Shown here in pieces: positions 2 through 11,186 of a DNA stretch of 11,222 nt; positions within the stretch are counted from its first letter, which is position 1; every line of letters starts with the position of its first letter. This stretch comes from Candidatus Raymondbacteria bacterium RIFOXYA2_FULL_49_16 (GTDB lineage: Bacteria; Fibrobacterota; OXYB2-FULL-49-7; XYB2-FULL-49-35): contig MFYT01000047.1 in NCBI GenBank assembly GCA_001789205.1, forward strand, positions 48,415 to 59,636, written 5' to 3'. Under the pieces are notes generated by a model. The model searched no databases. It saw nothing but the letters and a program-made list of their open reading frames with translations, and was not told where the DNA came from. The position numbers and the translations under genes were made by a program.

Positions 2-649
2 TTCATGAAAAAAACAAATATCACACGGCATCTGGTGTATCACTCCGGGTCTTATCCCACGGAAAAATATATTGAACTGGATCTGAATTATCTGTCAGAT
101 ATTCTTTTTGCGCCCTCTTTGGCTTTTGGATGGGAATTCGGAAAAAACTACTTCGGACTTAGCGGATATTTTTCTCCGGGATTTCATGAAAACAGGAAAT
201 TCCTCAATGCGCAAAAAGATACGTTCAATTTTGAAACAGACGGTCCCACGTACGGCGGTTTCTTTGAATTCTGGCGCATGGCCCTGGCAATACCCAATTT
301 CCTATATTTCGGTCCAGGTGGTTCACTGGGATACCTGAAACGGCAGCACGGTCTTGGTCAAGCAGGCAACGCGGTCTCGGCAACAGATACCGCACAATAT
401 TATCCTGATTTTTCCTATGACGACCCATTGGGGACTGAATACCTCTATTTCGGAGGGCTCATGGTCCGCATGAGAATCGGGTACAAACATGTTTTTATCC
501 TCGTCACCGACCGTTTCCTCATGGGCGTAAAATACCCAATTTCCACCTCTTCGTATGGAACAACGTATCTTGGAATGACCGAATCTGTCCAGCCAACCGA
601 ATTCGCCGCTGAAAACACACTCTGGGCGGGACTGCAATTCAGGTTTTAG
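2..649 (+). CDS. Outer-membrane beta-barrel protein, 5'-truncated by window edge
   Basis: The reading frame is open from the first base of the window, and the first in-frame ATG (5) has no ribosome binding site in the 4 bases visible and no signal peptide after it, so the gene most likely begins upstream and only its C-terminal about 215 residues are here. The protein shows alternating aromatic and Gly-rich strands (for example 'LAFGWEFGKNYFGLSGYFS' and 'LYFGGLMVRMRIGYKHVFIL') and ends in '...LWAGLQFRF'. A terminal Phe closing an amphipathic strand is the usual Bam-recognised end of outer-membrane barrels. I infer an outer-membrane or surface location; substrate and role are unknown. It is on the same strand as the CsgG-family operon but separated from it by a gene on the opposite strand, so it belongs to a different transcript. 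No specific family recognised. Confidence 0.7.
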   Translation, partial: FMKKTNITRHLVYHSGSYPTEKYIELDLNYLSDILFAPSLAFGWEFGKNYFGLSGYFSPGFHENRKFLNAQKDTFNFETDGPTYGGFFEFWRMALAIPNFLYFGPGGSLGYLKRQHGLGQAGNAVSATDTAQYYPDFSYDDPLGTEYLYFGGLMVRMRIGYKHVFILVTDRFLMGVKYPISTSSYGTTYLGMTESVQPTEFAAENTLWAGLQFRF

Positions 650-1033: not shown

Positions 1034-1963
1034 ATGCAAACCTTCTGGACCTTTGTCATGCGTTACTCAAAACCGGCTCCCCGGCGCCATATCATCTTTA
1101 TCCTGGTTTTTGTACTCTCAAGCGTTTTTATACACGCGGCCCAGCAACCCTGCGGAAACAACCTCAAACATCGTGTCGCCGTTGTTTCCGTGGACAACCG
1201 TACCCTGTACGGCCAGGAAAGGATCGGCAATGCAGTGCGGGACATGCTGACCACGGAAATTGCCAAAACCGGTTGCTTTGTCCTTGTTGAACGTGAACAG
1301 CTTGCCAAAGCCATGGCCGAGCAAGCACTTGGCCAAACCGGCGCAATGGATGAAGCCTCTGCTCCCAAGGTGGGCAAGCTCCTTGGCGCTGAATTCGTGC
1401 TTGTGGGCAGTGTGACCCAATTTGCAGTTCGTACCGAGGCTTCGGAATCGTTTTTCAGCGACAGCAAGACCCAATTCGCAGACGCTGCAGTGGACATCAA
1501 ACTTATCAATACCGAGACTGGAGAAATCACATTATCCCTTAATGGCACCGGCCATGCAAAGCGCACCTACAAAAGCGTGCTGGGTATGGGTTCTTCCGGT
1601 GGATACGATGAGGCGCTGGAGCAGCAGGCGCTTCGTTCCAGCATCGAAGGATTTGCGATAAAAATTGCCTCTGAAATCGAAAAAATGCCCTGGATGTGCT
1701 ATGCTGTTATCCGCAACACGCAGGCATATCTCGATGCTGGTTCGCGTTCGGGCATTGCTGTTGGACAGCAGTACGATATTTTTACCAAAGGCGAGGCAAT
1801 CTACAGCCCATCAACAGGTGCGCTATTGGGATACGATGAAGCAAAAACAGGCACTGTGCAGGTAGACCGCCTGCTTGGTGTAGATGGGGCCATTGCCATA
1901 GCTGTTTCAGGAACACTTCCTGAAAAAGAAGGGATTGTACGCCGTGCAGCCAGCAGGCCGTAA
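1034..1963 (+). CDS. CsgG-family envelope protein with FlgT-C-like tail
   Basis: The start is the ATG at 1034, preceded by AAGGA with 6 bases of spacing; the frame is open further upstream but without start signals. The 309-residue product has a signal peptide (hydrophobic core about 19-33, 'FIHAA' cleavage region about 32-36) without a lipobox. Residues about 47-217 match the CsgG/HfaB fold: 'RVAVVSVDN', 'IGNAVRDMLTTEIAKTG.F.LVER', 'KVGKLLGAEFVLVGSVTQF', then the strand carrying 'DIKLINTETGEITLSLNGTG'. Residues about 221-305 ('YLDAGSRSGIAVGQQYDIF', 'STGALLGYDEAKTGTVQV') resemble the C-terminal domain of flagellar protein FlgT. CsgG proteins form outer-membrane secretion pores or periplasmic assembly rings. 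This is the first gene of a five-gene operon; the next starts 9 bases after its stop. Whether it forms a pore is not decidable here: the family is clear, the function is inferred. Confidence 0.85.
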   Translation: MQTFWTFVMRYSKPAPRRHIIFILVFVLSSVFIHAAQQPCGNNLKHRVAVVSVDNRTLYGQERIGNAVRDMLTTEIAKTGCFVLVEREQLAKAMAEQALGQTGAMDEASAPKVGKLLGAEFVLVGSVTQFAVRTEASESFFSDSKTQFADAAVDIKLINTETGEITLSLNGTGHAKRTYKSVLGMGSSGGYDEALEQQALRSSIEGFAIKIASEIEKMPWMCYAVIRNTQAYLDAGSRSGIAVGQQYDIFTKGEAIYSPSTGALLGYDEAKTGTVQVDRLLGVDGAIAIAVSGTLPEKEGIVRRAASRP

Positions 1964-1972
1964 AAAATACCC

Positions 1973-2602
1973 ATGCGCTGTTTAAGAATAATCATCATTG
2001 TAGCAGCGGTCTTTCTCTTTGATTGCTGCGTTTCCACGCGCGGCTATAAGACGCCCGGCTTTGTGTCGCCTCTTCCTGTAGCGGTTCTCCCCCTCAACAA
2101 TATGAGCAATGATCTGAAAGCAGCCCAGATGTTCAGGGAGCTGTTTAAAAACTCGCTCCAGGACCTGGGATATTCGGTTGCAAAAAATAATGACGTGGAT
2201 TTCCTGCTGCAGCGTAATGGCCTCACTGACGGCGGGCAGCTCACAAATATTCCTCCTGAAAAACTATGTGAGATGCTGGGTGTGGACGCTGTGTTCATCG
2301 GCACCCTGGAAAAAGCAGGCCAACTGACCACCGGCGTATATAACAAGAATCATGTAAAAGCCAGTATGAAACTCTTTCGCCAAAAAGAACTTCTCTGGTC
2401 CGATGCTGCTGAAGCCAGTACAAAAAATGTGGGGCTCAGCGGCAAGGCCATTGGCGATGCCTTTGTAAAAAGGGTCGGCGGCAAAGCGCTCTCAAAATTC
2501 AATGGTCACCCCCTGCTCATGCTGACCGAGCAGGTGATCCTCGATTTGCAGCAGAAACTTCCCGGCAAACGCGTCACGCCCACAGGGTGGGAGAAACGAT
2601 GA
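1973..2602 (+). CDS. DUF799 / GNA1162-type putative lipoprotein
   Basis: The 209-residue protein has a strong N-terminal hydrophobic segment (residues 5-16) ending 'LFDCCVS', a plausible but non-canonical lipobox (Asp or Cys instead of Gly/Ala/Ser at -1). The body has the signature of the DUF799 family, whose best known member is Neisseria GNA1162: 'PVAVLPLNNMSNDLKAAQMF' at 35-54, 'LGYSV' at 65-69, 'LLQRNGLTDGGQL' at 78-90, 'LCEMLGVDAVFIGTL' at 98-112 and a hydrophobic C-terminal helix at about 179-196. Members are periplasmic or surface lipoproteins commonly encoded beside CsgG-like genes, often with a small DUF4810 lipoprotein that is absent here. There is no good ribosome binding site, so translation is probably coupled to the CsgG gene 9 bases upstream. 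The stop overlaps the next start as ATGA (2599-2602). Confidence 0.85.
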   Translation: MRCLRIIIIVAAVFLFDCCVSTRGYKTPGFVSPLPVAVLPLNNMSNDLKAAQMFRELFKNSLQDLGYSVAKNNDVDFLLQRNGLTDGGQLTNIPPEKLCEMLGVDAVFIGTLEKAGQLTTGVYNKNHVKASMKLFRQKELLWSDAAEASTKNVGLSGKAIGDAFVKRVGGKALSKFNGHPLLMLTEQVILDLQQKLPGKRVTPTGWEKR

Positions 2603-3732
2603 GCCTGAGGACTCTGTATCTTTTTATATGCATTGGCATTGCCTGCACTGTTGGCCGAGCCGAAACATTTGATCGCATTGTGCTCAAGGACATGACGGTT
2701 ATCAAAGCCAGCCTGGTCAAAGAGGTTGGCGATTCGCTGGCATACTTTGAGCTGAACGACCCAGATTTCACAAAACATATGGTGGGTCGCGATCAGGTAT
2801 TCAAATGGGTGCGGGCAACCCCGCAAACAGAAGCGCCCCAGACAGCGGTTCCTCAGCCGGCTACTCCCCCTTCTCAAAAAGTGGTGGCGTCTGACTCAAA
2901 CCACATGAAACAGCAGAGTCCGCGTTTGGAAAGCGCTCCAGCGCCTGAGATCAAAGAAACTGCTATGGATACTATTCCTGTTGTGGACTACCAGATCGTT
3001 ATTGCACGCATCGACTCAATAGAACGGAGTAAAAATCAGCCGGCCGCGATTGCCGCACCTGTCCGGAATCCCGTTACACCAGTCATAGTGTCACAGGAGG
3101 CGGCCTCAAGTACTGCCTCTGCTATTATTTTAGAAACAGATCCTAGCGACGCTGTTCCTGAAAATTTGACAAAAGTGCGTTTAGATCCGCCCACAGGAAC
3201 TGAAGGGGTAAAGATCATGCCGCGTTCAGGCATGTTCGCCCTGAACATCAACCCATCCATCTCGTCGTTTGGGGCTGGTTTACGCGCCTGGAGCGCCGCA
3301 GGTTTTGGATTCAACGCCAAAGCCGCAGTGCTGTGGGGAAGCGCAAGCGGGTTTCTGGTCAATGGTGAAATCATGCAAGCCCTGAATAAACAAGGGCGCG
3401 TGCGCTGGTATGGTCTCCTGTCAATCGGATATACCTGGGAGACCATTACAACGCCAGCCATAGACATAATGAGTGTCCATATCCCAAGCACCTCCATGGA
3501 TCTCTCTTTTTTAAACTATTGTTTTGGCCTGGGAGCTGAATGGCGGACAGGGATCAACCGCAACCATGGATGGGCCCTTGAGCTCGCTTATCAGGGCGGC
3601 AGCGCCGAATACGAAACAGAGGGTTACACCATGGATTATGGATATGGCTACTCCTACCCTGTGCCACCGCAGAAGCATACTGTTAAATTATCACCTGTTT
3701 ATTTTGGATTAACATATGCATATTATTTTTAA
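2599..3732 (+). CDS. Secreted protein: N-terminal 'DRIVLKD' domain, linker, C-terminal beta-barrel
   Basis: The start is the ATG at 2599, in an ATGA overlap with the previous stop, with GGGAG 5 bases before it; a GTG at 2587 in frame is inside that signal and rejected. The 377-residue product has a signal peptide (cleavage near 'GRA-ETF', residue 21). Residues 22-72 ('DRIVLKDMTVIKASLVKEVG' then 'FELNDPDFTKHMV') match a small domain often seen at the start of FCB-group envelope proteins ('DxIxLKdGxvIxgkV...'). Residues about 73-205 are a low-complexity linker rich in Pro, Ala, Gln and Ser. Residues about 212-377 are alternating Gly/aromatic strands ending in 'LTYAYYF', typical of an outer-membrane barrel of about eight strands. 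The domain order suggests a barrel with a periplasmic N-terminal domain. The barrel family was not identified. The last 17 bases overlap the next gene. Confidence 0.75.
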   Translation: MSLRTLYLFICIGIACTVGRAETFDRIVLKDMTVIKASLVKEVGDSLAYFELNDPDFTKHMVGRDQVFKWVRATPQTEAPQTAVPQPATPPSQKVVASDSNHMKQQSPRLESAPAPEIKETAMDTIPVVDYQIVIARIDSIERSKNQPAAIAAPVRNPVTPVIVSQEAASSTASAIILETDPSDAVPENLTKVRLDPPTGTEGVKIMPRSGMFALNINPSISSFGAGLRAWSAAGFGFNAKAAVLWGSASGFLVNGEIMQALNKQGRVRWYGLLSIGYTWETITTPAIDIMSVHIPSTSMDLSFLNYCFGLGAEWRTGINRNHGWALELAYQGGSAEYETEGYTMDYGYGYSYPVPPQKHTVKLSPVYFGLTYAYYF

Positions 3733-4828
3733 CACATCCCGCGCATGCCTGTTGGTTCTCCTGTTCGCAGGAGCCAACAGTTTACATGGCCAGCAAACAA
3801 GATCAGGTCTTGCGTTGGATAAAGCAGCGTCATCTGCGCCCGTTGCACGAGGCTCTCTTAAAGTTTTCTCAGAACCAGCCGGGGCCGAGATTCTTTTAAA
3901 CACCAAGGCCATGGGGATTACTCCATTAAAAATCATTAATATTGACGCAGGAGAATACAAACTATCACTTCGTCTCCAGGGATTCACACCATACGAGACC
4001 AGCATAAAAATACTGGCAAACGAGACACAAAATCTATCGCTGGCTCTAAAAGCCGTGGAGCAGCCTCTGCCTCCACCTGCTCCTGTTTTTGCCACGATTA
4101 CAGTTGCGACCACGCCCACTGGCGCAGCTCTTTCCATCAACGACCAGCCGGTTGGCACAACACCCTTTCGTTGTGATACCATGGCGCCTGGTCCATACAA
4201 ACTGCGGCTCGAATTGGAAGGATACGATCCCCTTGAAGGGTCGGTTATGCTAAAAGCAGGGGAAACGCGGCCGGTTGAGAAAAAAATGATCCGGCAATAC
4301 GGAACTCTTGCAGTGGCAACCACACCGCCCGGAGCTGCCCTTTCATTGAATGACCAGCCTTCTGGCACCACACCCTATAAAAATGAAAAGCTCTTGCCTG
4401 GTAATTACGCCCTATTACTCGAATTACCCGGTTACACCAACATATATGAAAGTATTGTCATGTTCAAAGATACAGCCATAAGCAGGCAATTCGCGCTCTC
4501 ACATTCAGCAGCCTGGCAGGATTCAGTCAAAGCCTTTGCCCTGGCAAAATCGAAACATGGACGAGTAGTGCGTCGTGTCTGGTTTGCCTGCCTTGCGGCA
4601 GCAGCGGCAGGCACGGGCTATTATTTTGACACACAGGTTGCAGCGGCGGCCGACAGACAAGACCAGATACAGACCGATTATCGCGCTGCCACTACGGATT
4701 TTTCAACCTACCAAGAACGTTATAGCAATGCCGGAAAAAAGGTAAAAGACAATTCCAAGGTGCGCAACATTCTCTATAGCGTGGCAGGCGCATTTGCCCT
4801 GTGCTTCGTGATTTCAATCCCGTTTTAG
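3716..4828 (+). CDS. Triple-PEGA-domain membrane protein
   Basis: The start ATG at 3716 lies 17 bases inside the preceding gene, with only a weak GGA upstream, so translational coupling is likely. The 370-residue product has a signal peptide (residues 1-25, '..NSLHGQQ'). Three PEGA repeats of about 70 residues follow at 46-114, 125-193 and 195-262; each has the pattern 'G.L.V.(T/S)(T/E)P.GA.(I/L).(I/L)N......TP......L.PG.Y.L.L.L.GY'. Repeats 2 and 3 are the most alike, so the last duplication is the most recent. Residues 284-303 and 350-369 are hydrophobic and probably membrane-spanning, enclosing a charged, Gln/Asp-rich loop. PEGA domains are extracytoplasmic and often act in envelope binding or sensing. 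The likely topology is repeats in the periplasm with a C-terminal hairpin in the inner membrane; this is inferred. Confidence 0.85.
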   Translation: MHIIFNTSRACLLVLLFAGANSLHGQQTRSGLALDKAASSAPVARGSLKVFSEPAGAEILLNTKAMGITPLKIINIDAGEYKLSLRLQGFTPYETSIKILANETQNLSLALKAVEQPLPPPAPVFATITVATTPTGAALSINDQPVGTTPFRCDTMAPGPYKLRLELEGYDPLEGSVMLKAGETRPVEKKMIRQYGTLAVATTPPGAALSLNDQPSGTTPYKNEKLLPGNYALLLELPGYTNIYESIVMFKDTAISRQFALSHSAAWQDSVKAFALAKSKHGRVVRRVWFACLAAAAAGTGYYFDTQVAAAADRQDQIQTDYRAATTDFSTYQERYSNAGKKVKDNSKVRNILYSVAGAFALCFVISIPF

Positions 4829-4843
4829 TATGGAGTTTTTGAC

Positions 4844-7291
4844 ATGCTGATAAAAATAGCGCAAGGGCTGCTCCTACTGGCGGTGTTTGGATTTCTGCAC
4901 TGTTCAAAAGGCAGCGGGCCATTTGAACGCGACAACCTGCTCGATCCGGAAGGCACAAATTGGCACCCGCCCATGGTCATTGCCATGGACGATAGTTTGA
5001 TAGCGGTTGGAGACAGTATCACCATTCGCGCGTCAGGTAGTGATCCCAATGGAACCGTTATGGAATACCTGTGGGCGCTTGACGGTTTTTCATATAAAAA
5101 CAAAACAGATAGCGGTGAAATCACGATTGCTTTTCAGACCGCGGGCATAAAGACCGTACTGGTCAAAGTGCTGGATAACGATAGCATTGAATCCGAGACC
5201 GACAGCATTATTATTATCGTGATGGGTGATGCGCCTATCAATGTTTCACCCGTAAACGGCGTATTGTCACAAACGGCCAGGCCAACGTTGCGCTGGATTC
5301 CCGGCAAGTTCAACAGCAGTTTCACGGTCTTGCTCGATACCGTGAATCCTCCCGTCTCGGTTAAAAAAACAGGCGTAACAGACAGTTCGTTTGCCGATAC
5401 AACCAGGGACCTGAAATACGGCAAAACCTACTACTGGCGGATTATCGGCGTAGATCCCTTTAGCCAAACCGCGCCTGGCGAAGTGTGGCAATTCAACACC
5501 CCATTGACATCAGGCATGAAACTCATCTCAGCGGCTGGACATGTTTTTTCCATGGGTCAAAACACTACTGCCATGCCAGTGCATTCTGTGCAATTCACCT
5601 ATGATTTTTTTATGGACAGCTCCGAAGTAACACAGGAGGATTTTTTCCGGATCATGGGGACAAACCCCTCCTCTTTTTCAGAAACGTCCAACCTTCCTGT
5701 GGAATATGTGACGTGGTTCGACGCAGTATTATACTGTAACAAAAAAAGCGAGCTGGAAGGGAAAGATACTGTATACGTATACACCTGGATTTCCGGAACA
5801 CCGGGGAACGGCTGTAGCGGACTGACCGGCCTTTCCATTGACATGAGCAAAGACGGGTATCGCTTGCCAACAGAGGCGGAATGGGAATATGCCTGCCGCG
5901 CTAACACAGCCACTGAATACTACTGGGGCAATGGGGCTTCTAACGCGTATGCCTGGTATTCCTCGAATACTGCAACCATACAACCCGTTGCCACCAGGCT
6001 GCCAAACGCCTTTGGGTTGTACGACATGGCTGGAAATGTGCGGGAATGGTGTAATGACTGGTACACGAGTTATAGCAATAACATGGTATATGACCCTGTT
6101 GGGCCAGCATATGGCACCTATCGTGTGTTACGTGGTGGTGCATATGACGATCCCTTTATTAATACCTTTGCTTCCGCCTATCGGACAAACGACTATCCCT
6201 ATACTCGGTCCACCAGCACTGGTTTCCGGGCAGTGCTGAGTCTATCTGTCTCAACACCTGTTATCATATACCAACCGCAATCCCAGACAGTAGACATTGG
6301 GCAAACCGTTACCTTCAGCGTATGGGCAAATGGGTATCCGCCCCCAGCTTGCCAATGGCAGAAAAATGGTATTGATATCAGCGGAGCGACATTCGCGAAT
6401 TACATTATCGCTTCAGCACTGCCATCAGATTCCGGGGTATATACGGTAGTGGTATCAAACAGCCGGGAGCGGGTAAAAAGCGATTCTGCGGTGCTAACAG
6501 TAATTGATACAACCACGATAAAGTATGTTACCACGGACAGCATGGTCTCTATTTCCGGCGCAATGTTCCCAATGGGTTCGGATCTGAACGCTGATGAGCA
6601 GCCAATTCACACGGTATCCATAAGCGGTTTTTTTATGAGCAATACCGAGGTGACGCAAGGCGAGTATGTGCGAGTCATGGGCGTCAATCCCTCATATTTT
6701 GCCAGCGACACAAATCAACCCGTGGAAAACCTGACCTGGTTCGACGCAGTGCTCTATTGCAATAAACGAAGCGTTTTGGAAGGTCGGGATTCGGTATACT
6801 CGTATATTGGAATTTCCGGGATCCCGGGCAATGGCTGTACAGGACTGACTGGACTTGCGATCACCATGACCAACAACGGGTACCGTCTGCCAACAGAAGC
6901 TGAATGGGAATTTGCCTGCCGCGCTGGAAGTGTTGACGACTTCTTATGGGGTTCATATCCGCCAAATTCCATACAGGATACGACACTCATTGATAGCAAC
7001 GCATGGTGGGCAAACAACAGCGGCAACATTTCGCATGCTGTTGCCCAAAAAAGATACAATGGGTTTGAGCTGTACGACATGACCGGCAATGTGCAGGAGT
7101 GGTGTAATGACTGGTATGACGCCTATGGCAGTGGCATGGAATACGATCCCATTGGGCCAATGAGCGGTACCTCCCGCATTACGCGCGGCGGTTCATGGAC
7201 CAGCAATGGAATCGACCTCCGTTGCGCTGCCCGGATATACCTTCCCCCTGTCCGGGTCAACTGGCTCGGTTTCCGGGTAGTTTCCCGGTAA
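4844..7291 (+). CDS. Lipoprotein with PKD, Fn3-like, FGE, Ig and second FGE domain
   Basis: The start ATG at 4844 follows GGAG with 8 bases of spacing. The 815-residue product begins with a lipoprotein signal (residues 1-20, 'FGFLHC', Cys20, with an unusual His at -1), then a PKD-like domain (about 42-126), an Fn3-like domain (130-219, 'YYWRIIGVD'), FGE-sulfatase (SUMF1-type) domain 1 (about 226-466), an I-set Ig domain (473-554, 'QPQSQTVDIGQTVTF', 'YQ/QWQKNG', 'SDSGVYTVVVSN') and FGE domain 2 (565-815). FGE landmarks are present twice: 'EVTQ', 'MG.NPS.F', 'V.(Y/N)(V/L)TWFDAVLYCNK', 'GYRLPTEAEWE(Y/F)ACRA', 'GLYDM.GNV.EWCNDW', 'RGG(A/S)(Y/W)' and 'GFR'. In both modules the catalytic Cys pair that formylglycine-generating enzymes carry after RGGS is absent, so sulfatase activation is unlikely; a ligand-binding or structural role is inferred. 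It is the last gene of the operon; a 105-base gap follows. Confidence 0.9.
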   Translation: MLIKIAQGLLLLAVFGFLHCSKGSGPFERDNLLDPEGTNWHPPMVIAMDDSLIAVGDSITIRASGSDPNGTVMEYLWALDGFSYKNKTDSGEITIAFQTAGIKTVLVKVLDNDSIESETDSIIIIVMGDAPINVSPVNGVLSQTARPTLRWIPGKFNSSFTVLLDTVNPPVSVKKTGVTDSSFADTTRDLKYGKTYYWRIIGVDPFSQTAPGEVWQFNTPLTSGMKLISAAGHVFSMGQNTTAMPVHSVQFTYDFFMDSSEVTQEDFFRIMGTNPSSFSETSNLPVEYVTWFDAVLYCNKKSELEGKDTVYVYTWISGTPGNGCSGLTGLSIDMSKDGYRLPTEAEWEYACRANTATEYYWGNGASNAYAWYSSNTATIQPVATRLPNAFGLYDMAGNVREWCNDWYTSYSNNMVYDPVGPAYGTYRVLRGGAYDDPFINTFASAYRTNDYPYTRSTSTGFRAVLSLSVSTPVIIYQPQSQTVDIGQTVTFSVWANGYPPPACQWQKNGIDISGATFANYIIASALPSDSGVYTVVVSNSRERVKSDSAVLTVIDTTTIKYVTTDSMVSISGAMFPMGSDLNADEQPIHTVSISGFFMSNTEVTQGEYVRVMGVNPSYFASDTNQPVENLTWFDAVLYCNKRSVLEGRDSVYSYIGISGIPGNGCTGLTGLAITMTNNGYRLPTEAEWEFACRAGSVDDFLWGSYPPNSIQDTTLIDSNAWWANNSGNISHAVAQKRYNGFELYDMTGNVQEWCNDWYDAYGSGMEYDPIGPMSGTSRITRGGSWTSNGIDLRCAARIYLPPVRVNWLGFRVVSR

Positions 7292-7360: not shown

Positions 7361-7390
7361 TTGACAATTACACGGCGCAAGCGCTATTTT
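7361..7390 (+). promoter_or_regulatory. Candidate sigma-70 promoter for the 7397 lipoprotein gene
   Basis: TTGACA (7361-7366, perfect -35), an 18-base spacer and TATTTT (7385-7390, 4/6 of the -10) lie just before the ATG at 7397. Transcription starting 6-7 bases past the -10 would begin at or next to the start codon, giving a leaderless mRNA; this fits the absence of a ribosome binding site there. The rest of the gap 7292-7360 shows no clear terminator. Confidence 0.35.
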
Positions 7391-7396
7391 TTACAC

Positions 7397-8293
7397 ATGG
7401 GTTTTTATCAGTCGTGTAACCGCAAAGCGCCGTTACTTTTGCTTGCGCTGTTTCCAGTGATATTTTTAACCAGTTGCGTGACAGTGAGGAATATTACCGA
7501 AAAAAGCATTATGCGTTCGAACCCGCAACTATCATCCATTGAAACAGCCAATGCTGTTCCGCGCAAATCAATACTTCTTTCCGGGACCGTCCTGCGCTAC
7601 ACCGGGACATTACGGCCAATCGTTGTCCACGATTCATCCGCAACAATCTCATCCCCGTATTTGTTTATCACGGACTCGGCATTCATCGATAACACATCAA
7701 TCATGTATCAGTCCACAACAGTAATTAATGGCAGTATCGCCTATTCACTTTCCAACTATCTGTTGTTAGGAAGCACAATTGCCGCATCAGCCGGGACATT
7801 GGCCGACGTGCCAAAGTCTTTCCAGCAATACCTTACCAGAGACACCAAGGAAGTCTCGATATTTTTCCGGTTCAATACCTATAGCAAACCCTGGTCATTC
7901 TCCTGGAGGCCTGAACTGCTTATCGGGAATGTCACAGGCGAGAACTTCTACAAAGTTGACAGCCTCATGGACTCAACACATATTGATTTTGAATTCCGGT
8001 CCCTGACCAACACCATAACGCTCCGATACCAGATAAATAAAGGAATTGGTTTTTTTTGGGGGGTCAATTTCATCTCACGTCCCTACGCAGTCACGAACAG
8101 GTCTTTGATCACAGAGTCATTCATAACCCCCTATGTTGGCGCGGATCTGAGGCTTTCAAGGGAATTAACCCTTAGCCTTTGCGTATCCAAACCCACGGCC
8201 TCAATACTTGAGAATTACACCTTTCCCATGCAACTAGGCGCCAAAATCGAATGGCAATGGTTTTTCCGAAGGAACCAGGAAGCAACACCCTAA
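7397..8293 (+). CDS. Lipoprotein with beta-barrel-like body, unknown function
   Basis: The frame is open from a TTG at 7361, but the ATG at 7397 puts the signal peptide at the N-terminus and is preferred; no clear ribosome binding site precedes it. The 298-residue product has a textbook lipobox, LTSC at residues 24-27, so it is almost certainly a lipoprotein. After a 30-residue polar stretch the body alternates strands and turns ('IMYQSTTVINGSIAYSLSNY', 'EVSIFFRFNTYSKPWSFSW', 'GIGFFWGVNFISRPY', 'GADLRLSRELTLSLCVS', 'LGAKIEWQWFF'), resembling the 'porin-like' barrel proteins common in FCB bacteria, and probably sits at the outer membrane. It lacks the terminal aromatic residue (it ends in 'RRNQEATP'). 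I do not recognise a family. The DUF2007 gene follows after 59 bases on the same strand. Confidence 0.7.
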   Translation: MGFYQSCNRKAPLLLLALFPVIFLTSCVTVRNITEKSIMRSNPQLSSIETANAVPRKSILLSGTVLRYTGTLRPIVVHDSSATISSPYLFITDSAFIDNTSIMYQSTTVINGSIAYSLSNYLLLGSTIAASAGTLADVPKSFQQYLTRDTKEVSIFFRFNTYSKPWSFSWRPELLIGNVTGENFYKVDSLMDSTHIDFEFRSLTNTITLRYQINKGIGFFWGVNFISRPYAVTNRSLITESFITPYVGADLRLSRELTLSLCVSKPTASILENYTFPMQLGAKIEWQWFFRRNQEATP

Positions 8294-8352
8294 TAGGAAA
8301 AGCATCTAAAGAATTATGCCAAATGCGGCAAAACGCTGTGAGAAGAAAGATA

Positions 8353-8565
8353 ATGGACAATATCGAATACGTTGAAATTCTAAAAACAAACAGCATGACA
8401 GATCTGTCCATGATCAATATGATATTGTCCGATGCAAAAATCGAATATTACATCGAGAACGAAACCACCCTGTTTATTCTGCCGCCAATGGCATTACCCC
8501 GTGTCATGGTTCTTAAAGAGCAGTCAGACGAAGCAATCATGCTGCTCAAGACGTACGATTTGTAA
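8353..8565 (+). CDS. DUF2007-family small protein
   Basis: The start is the ATG at 8353, giving 70 residues beginning MDNIEYVEILKTNS; the frame is open further upstream to 8251 but that part overlaps the end of the lipoprotein gene and is basic and unlike the family. A weak AGAAAG precedes the ATG. The pattern 'YVEILKTNSMTDLSMINMIL', then 'DAKIEYYIENE' and the closing 'VMVLKEQSDEAIMLLKTYDL' matches DUF2007 ('putative signal transducing protein'), a ferredoxin-like fold in which a helix and a short beta sheet are followed by 'V.V...D.EEA...L'. No signal peptide or membrane segment, so it is probably cytoplasmic. Its biochemical role is not established. It is probably co-transcribed with the lipoprotein gene. 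Confidence 0.75.
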   Translation: MDNIEYVEILKTNSMTDLSMINMILSDAKIEYYIENETTLFILPPMALPRVMVLKEQSDEAIMLLKTYDL

Positions 8566-8973: not shown

Positions 8974-10050
8974 TTATGGTAGATACACCATCTTCCCCAC
9001 CACGGTTTTTCCTCCTACCCTCACCCTGCAATAATAAACCCCCCCCGGCAACCTTGAAGCATTCCATTCCAAGGGTTGCGAACCTTGCGCTGCCAGCCGA
9101 TCCACCAGCTTTCCGCGAACATCATAGATATCAACATCTGCTTTCTGGCTTATGGATATTTTTGTGAAAGGATTGAACGGATTGGGCACTATGGTCACTT
9201 TAATATCGAAATTGCTCTGTGGAACTTTCTCCGTGGAAACACTGTCGCTAAGGTTGCCATAAACTACGAGATGAGTAGTGTTGCCATCCGTAGTCCATGG
9301 ATGAATTGGCGGATAATACCCGGTTGTATTTAAATAACAAGCTTCATTTGCAAATGTTGTAAATTCACCTGTACTTCCTTCTCCTGAACGAGAAAGCAAT
9401 GCGACAGCGTATTTACCATTATGATGTTGTACAATCCAATCTATTTGTTTTGTAATAGGAACCCTAACAAAATGACTGTCCACAGATGTTGGAAGGTTTT
9501 CCAGTAGAACGTTAAAAGCAAAGGTATCCGCGGTACCTTCGACTAAATCAAGAGAATAATCAAGAGATGCCGGTAGAAGCAGGTCTTGATAGACTGCATC
9601 ATCGGACAAACCACCAGGAACTCCATCCCACATTTCAATGCCAGCGGTTACATCTACGACCCCACACCTGATGTTGATGGGGCCGCTGTGGCACCACGGA
9701 ATACTAGAAGGTCTCGCGTACCAATATTCGCCTCGGATAAAGGCCGAATCTACTCTTCCGGTCATTGCTGAATCATTGATATGCGTTGAATAAAACAAAC
9801 TGCACCATCCATAAGTATCATAGATACCTGATCCGCATGAAAACCCGCTTTCCGCATACCCAAGGCCAACCGAGTTGTTGCATGTAGCAATTTTCCCCTC
9901 ATGCATAATCGCGTCTACAGGCAGGGCCGGGCCAGGACTGTCGGCCAGGGCATAGTGGTTCTGCAGGGCCTTGTACCAGAAGACGTGGGTCTCCTGGCTG
10001 TAGAGGCTTGAAACGAGGATCAATGACAAGGTTAATAGGTATTTAAACAT
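8974..10050 (-). CDS. Secreted protein with C-terminal T9SS-type sorting domain, beta-sandwich-like
   Basis: The start is the ATG at 10050-10048, preceded by AAAAGG with 7 bases of spacing; the open frame continues to 10245 but only as a shadow of the neighbouring gene. The 358-residue product has a signal peptide (MFKYLLTLSLILVSSLYSQ, residues 1-19). Residues about 286-358 form a por/T9SS type A sorting domain: 'IVPNPFNPFTKISIS', 'VDIYDVRGKLVDRL', 'LPGGVYYCRVRVGGKTVVGK'. The middle (about 90-265) has a pattern like DNRLRE/CBM96-type beta-sandwich modules ('VDSAFIRGEYW', 'VRVPITKQIDWIVQHHNGKY', 'GEFTTFANEAC', 'THLVVYG'); this is a weak match. Seven Cys in the mature chain could form disulfides. 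It is the second gene of a two-gene unit, 46 bases after the stop of the upstream gene. Likely exported to the surface or medium; function unknown. Confidence 0.8.
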   Translation of the reverse strand: MFKYLLTLSLILVSSLYSQETHVFWYKALQNHYALADSPGPALPVDAIMHEGKIATCNNSVGLGYAESGFSCGSGIYDTYGWCSLFYSTHINDSAMTGRVDSAFIRGEYWYARPSSIPWCHSGPINIRCGVVDVTAGIEMWDGVPGGLSDDAVYQDLLLPASLDYSLDLVEGTADTFAFNVLLENLPTSVDSHFVRVPITKQIDWIVQHHNGKYAVALLSRSGEGSTGEFTTFANEACYLNTTGYYPPIHPWTTDGNTTHLVVYGNLSDSVSTEKVPQSNFDIKVTIVPNPFNPFTKISISQKADVDIYDVRGKLVDRLAAQGSQPLEWNASRLPGGVYYCRVRVGGKTVVGKMVYLP

Positions 10051-10096
10051 ATTTATACCTTTTTCTGTTCGCATAATTATCCAGCATGGGTGCCCC

Positions 10097-11173
10097 CTAT
10101 CGGAGAAAAACAATCTGAATGGTCTTGGTGAAATAATTCGTTCTAACTCTGTAAAAGTAAATACCGCCCGGCACATAATTGCCACGCCCATCCTTGCCGT
10201 CCCAGGATTCGGTATAGGTGCCTGCAGGCTGGTTTGGACGCTCACATCGTTTTATCACAACTCCACGTATGTTAAATACAATTATCGACACATTATAAGT
10301 ATTATTTGATTTTGGTATAACTGGCAATTGATATTTCAGGGTTGTGGCGGGATTAAAAGGATTCGGGTAATTTGAGATTGCATATTCAGATGGATACGAA
10401 TTTTCCGCGGACAATGAATCTAAAAGGCCGTCACTTTTGTTATTAAATGCTATTGGTTTACCTAGCCCTTCATCCCGAATACGAATACTGACAGTAGCAC
10501 CATTCTCTATATGAAAAGGCGGACTGATGGTTATTGTCCCCCCGGCAAGAAAGTCAACTTTTGCCCCACTATCTACAATTGAAGAATCCATTGGCATATC
10601 CCCATTTGACGCTACTCTTCTGTCGTACTGGTATCCGATGTTGAAAGTCATGTTTCGGACTGTCCGCCCGTAATGCACATAAAATGATAAATTAACCGGA
10701 TCATAAGGACAATAATCAATGGCGTGTCTAAATAGAGGGTCAGTGTTCCATTTGGAGTCAACTATGCCCCATTCGGTAGTTTGGATTGCTGAATGATCAT
10801 TCCCATAAGATACCTTTTCTGTCCAGCCTGAGTAACCTTTTTCTACGTAGCTACCATCGGTAATATATGCTGCGTCTGAGTTATTCCCAATAGGCCCGCC
10901 CTCGGACATGTTCCATGCAAAAGAATGGCAGATATATAACATACTTGCATCGGATAATAGTGTAGCGTTCGGATAAAGCTCTTGGAAAAGGGCATTTAAC
11001 GCAGCCATAGTGCTATCGTTATACTCAGGTCCTGAATAGTGAAGCAGAACCGGAGTCCCTTTAGGCGTATAAATGGTATCAATAACAACATACCCATCAG
11101 CATTACCAACGGTGGTCAAACTCATGAGTAAAGCAGTAAGTATTAGTGAAATTGTTTGTCGAGTAGAACTCAT
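10097..11173 (-). CDS. Secreted papain-like (NlpC/P60- or CHAP-like?) protein with T9SS sorting domain
   Basis: The start is the ATG at 11173-11171; AAAGGAGG lies 5 bases before it and excludes the GTG at 11179, which overlaps that signal. The 358-residue product has a signal peptide (residues 1-25, cleavage near 'GNA-DG'). Residues about 75-160 show 'YICHSFAWNMSEGG' (Cys82), 'AAYITDGSYV', 'VSYGNDHSAI' (His127), 'GIVDSKW' and 'PLFRHAIDYCPY' (His150). A Cys at the start of a helix, followed by a 'DHSAI' strand, is the arrangement of papain-like cell-wall hydrolases and amidases, so Cys82 and His127 are possible catalytic residues; this is inferred by eye. Residues about 164-235 look like beta strands, then the sorting domain at 268-358 has 'NYPNPFNPATTLKYQLP', 'VFNIRGVVIKR', 'WDGKDGRGNYVPGGIYFYRV'. 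It is the first gene of the minus-strand unit; its promoter is outside or at the edge of the window. Confidence 0.75.
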   Translation of the reverse strand: MSSTRQTISLILTALLMSLTTVGNADGYVVIDTIYTPKGTPVLLHYSGPEYNDSTMAALNALFQELYPNATLLSDASMLYICHSFAWNMSEGGPIGNNSDAAYITDGSYVEKGYSGWTEKVSYGNDHSAIQTTEWGIVDSKWNTDPLFRHAIDYCPYDPVNLSFYVHYGRTVRNMTFNIGYQYDRRVASNGDMPMDSSIVDSGAKVDFLAGGTITISPPFHIENGATVSIRIRDEGLGKPIAFNNKSDGLLDSLSAENSYPSEYAISNYPNPFNPATTLKYQLPVIPKSNNTYNVSIIVFNIRGVVIKRCERPNQPAGTYTESWDGKDGRGNYVPGGIYFYRVRTNYFTKTIQIVFLR

Positions 11174-11178
11174 AGCCA

Positions 11179-11186
11179 CCTCCTTT
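11179..11186 (-). promoter_or_regulatory. Strong ribosome binding site deciding the start at 11173
   Basis: AAAGGAGG on the minus strand, 5 bases before the ATG, is the best Shine-Dalgarno sequence in the window. It overlaps an in-frame GTG at 11179 and so rules it out as the start. The remaining 36 bases to the window edge show no promoter. Confidence 0.8.

Follow-up and report, generated by a model that had tools for sequence, protein, structure and literature searches.

Genes for a CsgG-family protein, a DUF4810 protein and a GNA1162 lipoprotein are annotated side by side in meningococcus (PMC5282872). The Vibrio flagellar H-ring is made up of FlgO, FlgP and FlgT (PMC7990780). Treponema TvpA and other FGE-fold variable proteins belong to the FGE subclass of the C-type lectin fold, and serve ligand binding, not catalysis (PMC5006420). 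Fib_succ_major proteins (TIGR02145) are present in 17-119 copies in most of the Fibrobacteres genomes listed, and a cellulose-attachment or cohesin-like role has been proposed for them (PMC4704652). Both FGE and Fib_succ_major appear among the targets of diversity-generating retroelements (PMC4159848). Literature searches found no described system with the five-gene set reported below or with its pair of PEGA-tail and lipoprotein genes, no papers joining PEGA with CsgG, or PEGA with Fibrobacter, and no named partner for Fib_succ_major proteins.

The window, i.e. the whole stretch of DNA analysed (11,222 nucleotides), corresponds to positions 48415-59636 of contig C47, in a genome of 5.43 Mb (112 contigs, completeness 100). 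It contains an operon, regarded here as a version of the known CsgG-GNA1162 module to which a PEGA-tail/lipoprotein pair typical of the phylum is attached. As in the meningococcal module, CsgG-family and GNA1162 genes are adjacent, their products are exported, and no curlin genes accompany them. The operon differs from that module in several respects: Pfam finds no DUF4810 product among the five, whereas DUF4810 is present in relatives; gene order is reversed relative to most phylum relatives; in place of a single-copy lipoprotein, the PEGA part is a three-copy protein with a predicted membrane tail; an FGE lipoprotein is added. With the H-ring, the operon shares related fold families (FlgO/TolB-like and, probably, FlgT_C-like), but no flagellar genes are seen beside it, and neither LPP20, which we take to be the family of FlgP, nor FlgT_N is found in the window.

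Layout and products of the five genes

The features of the operon, and of the reading frame preceding it, are the following:

5..649, + strand: probable C-terminal barrel part of a TolB/CsgG-PEGA protein from upstream, lying outside the five-gene unit
1034..1963, + strand: gene 1, exported protein of the CsgG family, 309 aa, C-terminal domain probably of FlgT_C/TsaP type, no lipobox (PF03783, profile)
1973..2602, + strand: gene 2, GNA1162-like (DUF799) lipoprotein, 209 aa (PF05643, 2.2e-14; profile against 4hrv)
2599..3732, + strand: gene 3, exported protein, 377 aa from the ATG, with a small N-terminal domain, a linker of about 130 residues and a probable outer-membrane barrel
3716..4828, + strand: gene 4, triple-PEGA protein, 370 aa, with a 105-residue C-terminal tail (PEGA x3)
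4844..7291, + strand: gene 5, lipoprotein, 815 aa, with Cys20, a conserved N-P/L-x-D-P motif, and PKD, FGE-fold, Ig and FGE-fold domains

The preliminary description had reported five genes on one strand, and the ORF coordinates confirm it: all reading frames are open, and the junctions between genes 1/2, 2/3, 3/4 and 4/5 measure +9, -4, -17 and +15 bases, the ATG of gene 3 (2599) overlapping the stop of gene 2 in a 4-base ATGA. An export signal had also been claimed for every product, and a hydrophobic N-terminal segment of the export type does open five out of five. Lipobox-like cysteines are found in gene 2 (LFDC|C) and gene 5 (GFLHC).

Gene 1 matches PF03783 with an E value of 1e-28, and a profile of seven homologues matches CsgG structures. 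The C-terminal domain had been labelled FlgT_C. The label is weak but sound: FlgT_C is absent from the Pfam matches of gene 1, it scores below the cut-off in one homologue (E 0.003, 18.3 bits vs 27), and the homologue alignment (n=7) matches a repeat (3jc8, E 1.5e-4) of TsaP, a secretin-associated protein. For gene 2, the GNA1162 family profile matches structure 4hrv at 4.6e-31. Matches to CsgG, GNA1162, LpoB, TolB_N and FlgO overlap in proteins of the CsgG/GNA1162 type, in line with what would be one common fold. As genes 1 and 2 lie in trees on long branches, with no supported sisters, no origin is claimed for either. Eighteen CsgG-like places are found in the source genome: about 9 have a large exported protein or lipoprotein (541-2647 residues) immediately downstream, and about 5 an apparent C-terminal barrel of their own. 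In the same genome, L208:13-7764 and L209:1-7943, directly 3' of TolB/CsgG-like genes, encode exported proteins, the first 2583 residues long and the second at least 2647.

Gene 3 has no Pfam match. Over residues 216-380 it is similar (E 6.6e-6) to the N-terminal part of a protein of the OmpA type, in which an OmpA domain is found, and its C-terminus, PVYFGLTYAYYF, is compatible with a barrel signal. A crude score of strand amphipathy was equalled in 68 of 500 shuffles, the AlphaFold2 model of gene 3 alone is useless (pLDDT 34), and profile comparison with the 170-residue barrels of relatives gave no match (probability 2.5%). Judging from the sequence, the C-terminal part is a probable outer-membrane barrel.

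The three PEGA copies of gene 4 are recognized by Pfam with an E value of 3e-45. A single strong hydrophobic segment is present, at 352-370; in the structure model the third PEGA domain is well predicted, and the two-helix tail is of low confidence. Location of the protein in the inner membrane is predicted from that segment and that tail. The tail defines a phylum family, A7, with the pattern RR..FG..AAG.G.YF..RN..Y......SIPF.

Pfam finds two FGE-sulfatase copies in gene 5 (E 2e-87), along with PKD- and Ig-type domains. The best match of the FGE domains is TvpA (2y3c, 3.8e-32), with which they share the FGE subclass of the C-type lectin fold; unlike TvpA, gene 5 has two FGE copies, combined in a single lipoprotein with domains of the PKD and Ig types. 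The catalytic cysteine pair near the C-terminus is absent from both (RVLRGGAYDDPFINTFASAYR and RITRGGSWTSNGIDLRCAAR, vs RVLRGGSYLCHDSYCNRYR in the enzyme), and catalytic cysteines are likewise absent from the FGE domains of all PEGA-tail/lipoprotein pairs compared. A catalytic FGE role was rejected for lack of the pair; since the domains also resemble a variable protein, binding is likelier than catalysis. Gene 5 scores 245.8 bits against TIGR02171 (Fibrobacter lipoprotein), below the curated cut-off of 544. Searching the genome contigs with gene 5 returned mostly unrelated FGE proteins.

Distribution of the operon parts

Comparisons within the phylum were based on a sample of 167 genomes from 40 genera. 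The preliminary description had taken the five genes as one system, with the five families expected to co-occur. Their co-occurrence across the phylum fails as a strict test, because the exact five-gene set is present in 0 other genomes of the 167. In favor of a single system, PEGA and barrel genes do accompany CsgG-GNA1162 in relatives, and CsgG-like domains are found fused to PEGA as well as to FGE. The parts of the operon are not unique: it looks like the joining of two recurrent sub-modules.

The first one, CsgG with DUF799 (GNA1162), had been described as a module, and this holds both in the phylum and in a second one. GNA1162 is found in 7 of the 167 genomes, and each of the six others has, in the same cluster, a CsgG gene similar to gene 1 (E 1e-25 to 1e-32). 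In four of them (G155, G166, G057, G154) the cluster runs on with a lipoprotein of one PEGA copy and a putative small-barrel protein about 170 residues long; a DUF4810-like TPR lipoprotein precedes it in three (G155, G057, G154). The order in G053 is CsgG, PEGA-like, barrel (OMP_b-brl_2, 3e-10), DUF4810, GNA1162 and a Fib_succ_major lipoprotein. Of 247 genomes from the phylum of a Desulfobacterales MAG, 65 have GNA1162 above cut-off: among the best 18 loci, CsgG is alongside in 15 and a PEGA lipoprotein in 9. Several CsgG-GNA1162 loci of this phylum also hold LPP20, TPR-SLH and FlgT_N/FlgO-like genes, a further likeness to the H-ring; no flagellar genes were recognised in these neighbourhoods. 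In the phylum of a Bacteroides MAG, GNA1162 is above cut-off in 0 of 299 genomes. A genuine CsgG-GNA1162 module is supported.

A conserved cluster of another phylum (L245, L247, L248, L249, L250, L251) comprises LPP20, a TPR-SLH lipoprotein, FlgT_N/FlgO-like, GNA1162, CsgG, PEGA and FecR, and adjoins housekeeping genes. It resembles the H-ring set and may be a relative of it without flagellar role.

The second sub-module is the pair formed by an A7-tail PEGA gene and a lipoprotein gene directly downstream, marked by a Cys...NPxD motif; genes 4 and 5 fit this definition. By profile, the tail family occurs in 80 of the 167 genomes and 31 of the 40 genera, with up to 27 copies per genome; in the class of an Ignavibacteria MAG it gave 0 of 197, with no positive control there. 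In a set of 14 loci with a readable downstream side, picked by similarity to gene 4 (one through gene 5), the PEGA-tail gene is followed on the same strand by a lipoprotein gene in all 14, at -35 to +64 bases, and all 14 lipoproteins feature a conserved N-P-x-D motif after the cysteine, which reads N-L-L-D in gene 5. In a second set from the same families (ten tail matches, one repeating an earlier locus) a lipoprotein is next in 8 of 9 loci, while the tail proteins of Fibrobacteraceae have a lipoprotein neighbour in 4 of 11 only. G053 has 27 places matching the PEGA-tail family, which suggests a large paralogous expansion.

At 12 loci, from 11 genomes, the domain filling the lipoprotein slot is FGE. 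In relatives (L184, L187, L269, L271) the lipoprotein that follows a PEGA-tail gene has Fib_succ_major in this place, where the window has FGE domains; LamG (L194) and metallophosphoesterase (L190, L192) are also found. At L269 (6669-7976 and the gene downstream of it), a single lipoprotein has two Fib_succ_major domains and one FGE domain, which supports the two as interchangeable heads.

At ten loci (L184, L185, L188, L193, L194, L195, L162, L269, L270, L271) a local profile places a CsgG/TolB-like domain ahead of the PEGA copies; of the three analysed by Pfam, CsgG was confirmed in L184 and L195, and none was found in L162. A CsgG-FGE fusion occurs in an Eisenbacteria MAG (L031; Pfam 6.5e-7 for CsgG, 2.7e-48 for FGE). 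Apparent fusions of CsgG to FGE in L034, L074 and L079, seen by local profile only and unconfirmed by Pfam, were left out of the counts.

Possible role of the operon and alternative readings

With a probability of roughly 0.45, the five genes encode one assembly spanning the envelope, which anchors or displays the lectin-like FGE lipoprotein. The recurring gene pairs, the fusions, and the TvpA match and missing cysteines of the FGE domains speak for it; the single occurrence of the five-gene set in the phylum sample, the lack of a lipobox in gene 1 and the looser tie in Fibrobacteraceae speak against it. The overlapping fold matches, the TsaP match, the gene 4 model, the missing cysteines and the TvpA match suggest that genes 1-3 provide a platform at the outer membrane, gene 4 an adaptor in the inner membrane, and gene 5 a lipoprotein that binds a ligand. 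The products of genes 1 and 2, sharing a fold of the TolB_N/LpoB/FlgO type, would form an oligomeric platform at the periplasmic face of the outer membrane, and the FlgT_C-type domain of gene 1 may provide ring contacts, comparable to those of TsaP and of the flagellar H-ring. The barrel of gene 3 would fix or open the outer membrane. The PEGA protein would be fixed to the inner membrane through the helices of its C-terminal tail and would span the periplasm up to the platform, so that the products might form one envelope-spanning structure. Gene 5 is assumed to be exposed at the cell surface; its two non-catalytic FGE domains, C-type-lectin-like in fold, would serve ligand binding, a surface glycan being the likeliest candidate.

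Genes 1-3 and genes 4-5 may instead be two independent modules lying side by side, co-transcribed by neighbourhood only: a Neisseria-type unit for outer-membrane maintenance or secretion, and a pair of PEGA adaptor and lectin lipoprotein. We regard this as rather unlikely. Pairs of the gene 4-5 type do occur in many genomes without stand-alone CsgG and GNA1162, and the CsgG/GNA1162 genes of relatives have a single-PEGA lipoprotein and no FGE lipoprotein; the 17-base overlap at the gene 3/4 junction and the fusion of CsgG-like domains to PEGA-tail proteins argue against independence, the fusions indicating that gene 4 normally has a partner of the CsgG type.

Two further readings give the operon a role in secretion. 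Gene 5 could be a periplasm-facing ring part with FGE fold, like GldK/PorK, serving, on a PEGA/CsgG scaffold, the T9SS export of nearby sorting-domain proteins, two of which are encoded at 8974-11179. GldK (TIGR03525) is among the closest NCBIfam models (1.8e-37), but its score of 129.6 bits is far from the cut-off of 350, on which ground GldK membership was rejected; moreover, Fib_succ_major, LamG or phosphoesterase takes the place of this domain at other loci, which counts against a core part of a secretion system, as such a part should not vary so. This makes the reading improbable. Little probability is also assigned to gene 1 as a curli-type pore, with a ring of beta-hairpins exporting the lipoprotein or another substrate. 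The match to PF03783 covers model positions 7-199 of 210, and, at alignment level, residues corresponding to the CsgG hairpin regions are present; yet gene 1 lacks the lipidation site that most of its homologues have, Pfam and NCBIfam scans show no CsgA/B/E/F-type gene among the window products, similarity to PDB is weak (1.4e-4) despite the profile, and the CsgG-like relatives in the source genome mostly retain the TolB-like half only.

The reading as one assembly may be extended, though the extension is itself doubtful. Fibrobacterota might possess an undescribed, often multi-copy envelope system, where a TolB/CsgG-type protein and a PEGA adaptor with inner-membrane tail hold or export a cognate lipoprotein with a lectin-like head that differs from copy to copy by exchange (FGE, Fib_succ_major, LamG); this operon would be the most complete form of the system, with outer-membrane ring and barrel. 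If true, such a multi-copy PEGA-adaptor/lipoprotein system would explain attachment to insoluble polysaccharide. The mechanism by which Fibrobacterota hold on to cellulose or chitin is unsettled. As the lipoprotein slot (FGE or Fib_succ_major) is now tied to a fixed genetic partner and, via fusions, to the CsgG/TolB fold, the question of attachment becomes testable.

Surroundings of the operon

A 19-N assembly gap (C47 48396-48414), directly before the window, cuts an upstream TolB-PEGA gene. The upstream neighbour reads TolB-like, PEGA, gap and the barrel-like ORF 5-649, corresponding to the kind with a C-terminal barrel of its own; this ORF is probably no independent gene but the barrel end of the interrupted one.

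On the other side, 69 bases 3' of gene 5, a possible sixth gene (7361-8293) features a lipoprotein-like start and barrel-like strands, and a TTGACA-type promoter-like site is found at its start; neither Pfam nor NCBIfam gives a match for its product. Positions 8251-8565 encode a small DUF2007 protein. Finally, the - strand encodes two exported proteins (8974-10245 and 10097-11179) with C-terminal domains of the T9SS sorting type or FlgD-like, and from them a type IX secretion system is likely present in the source genome.
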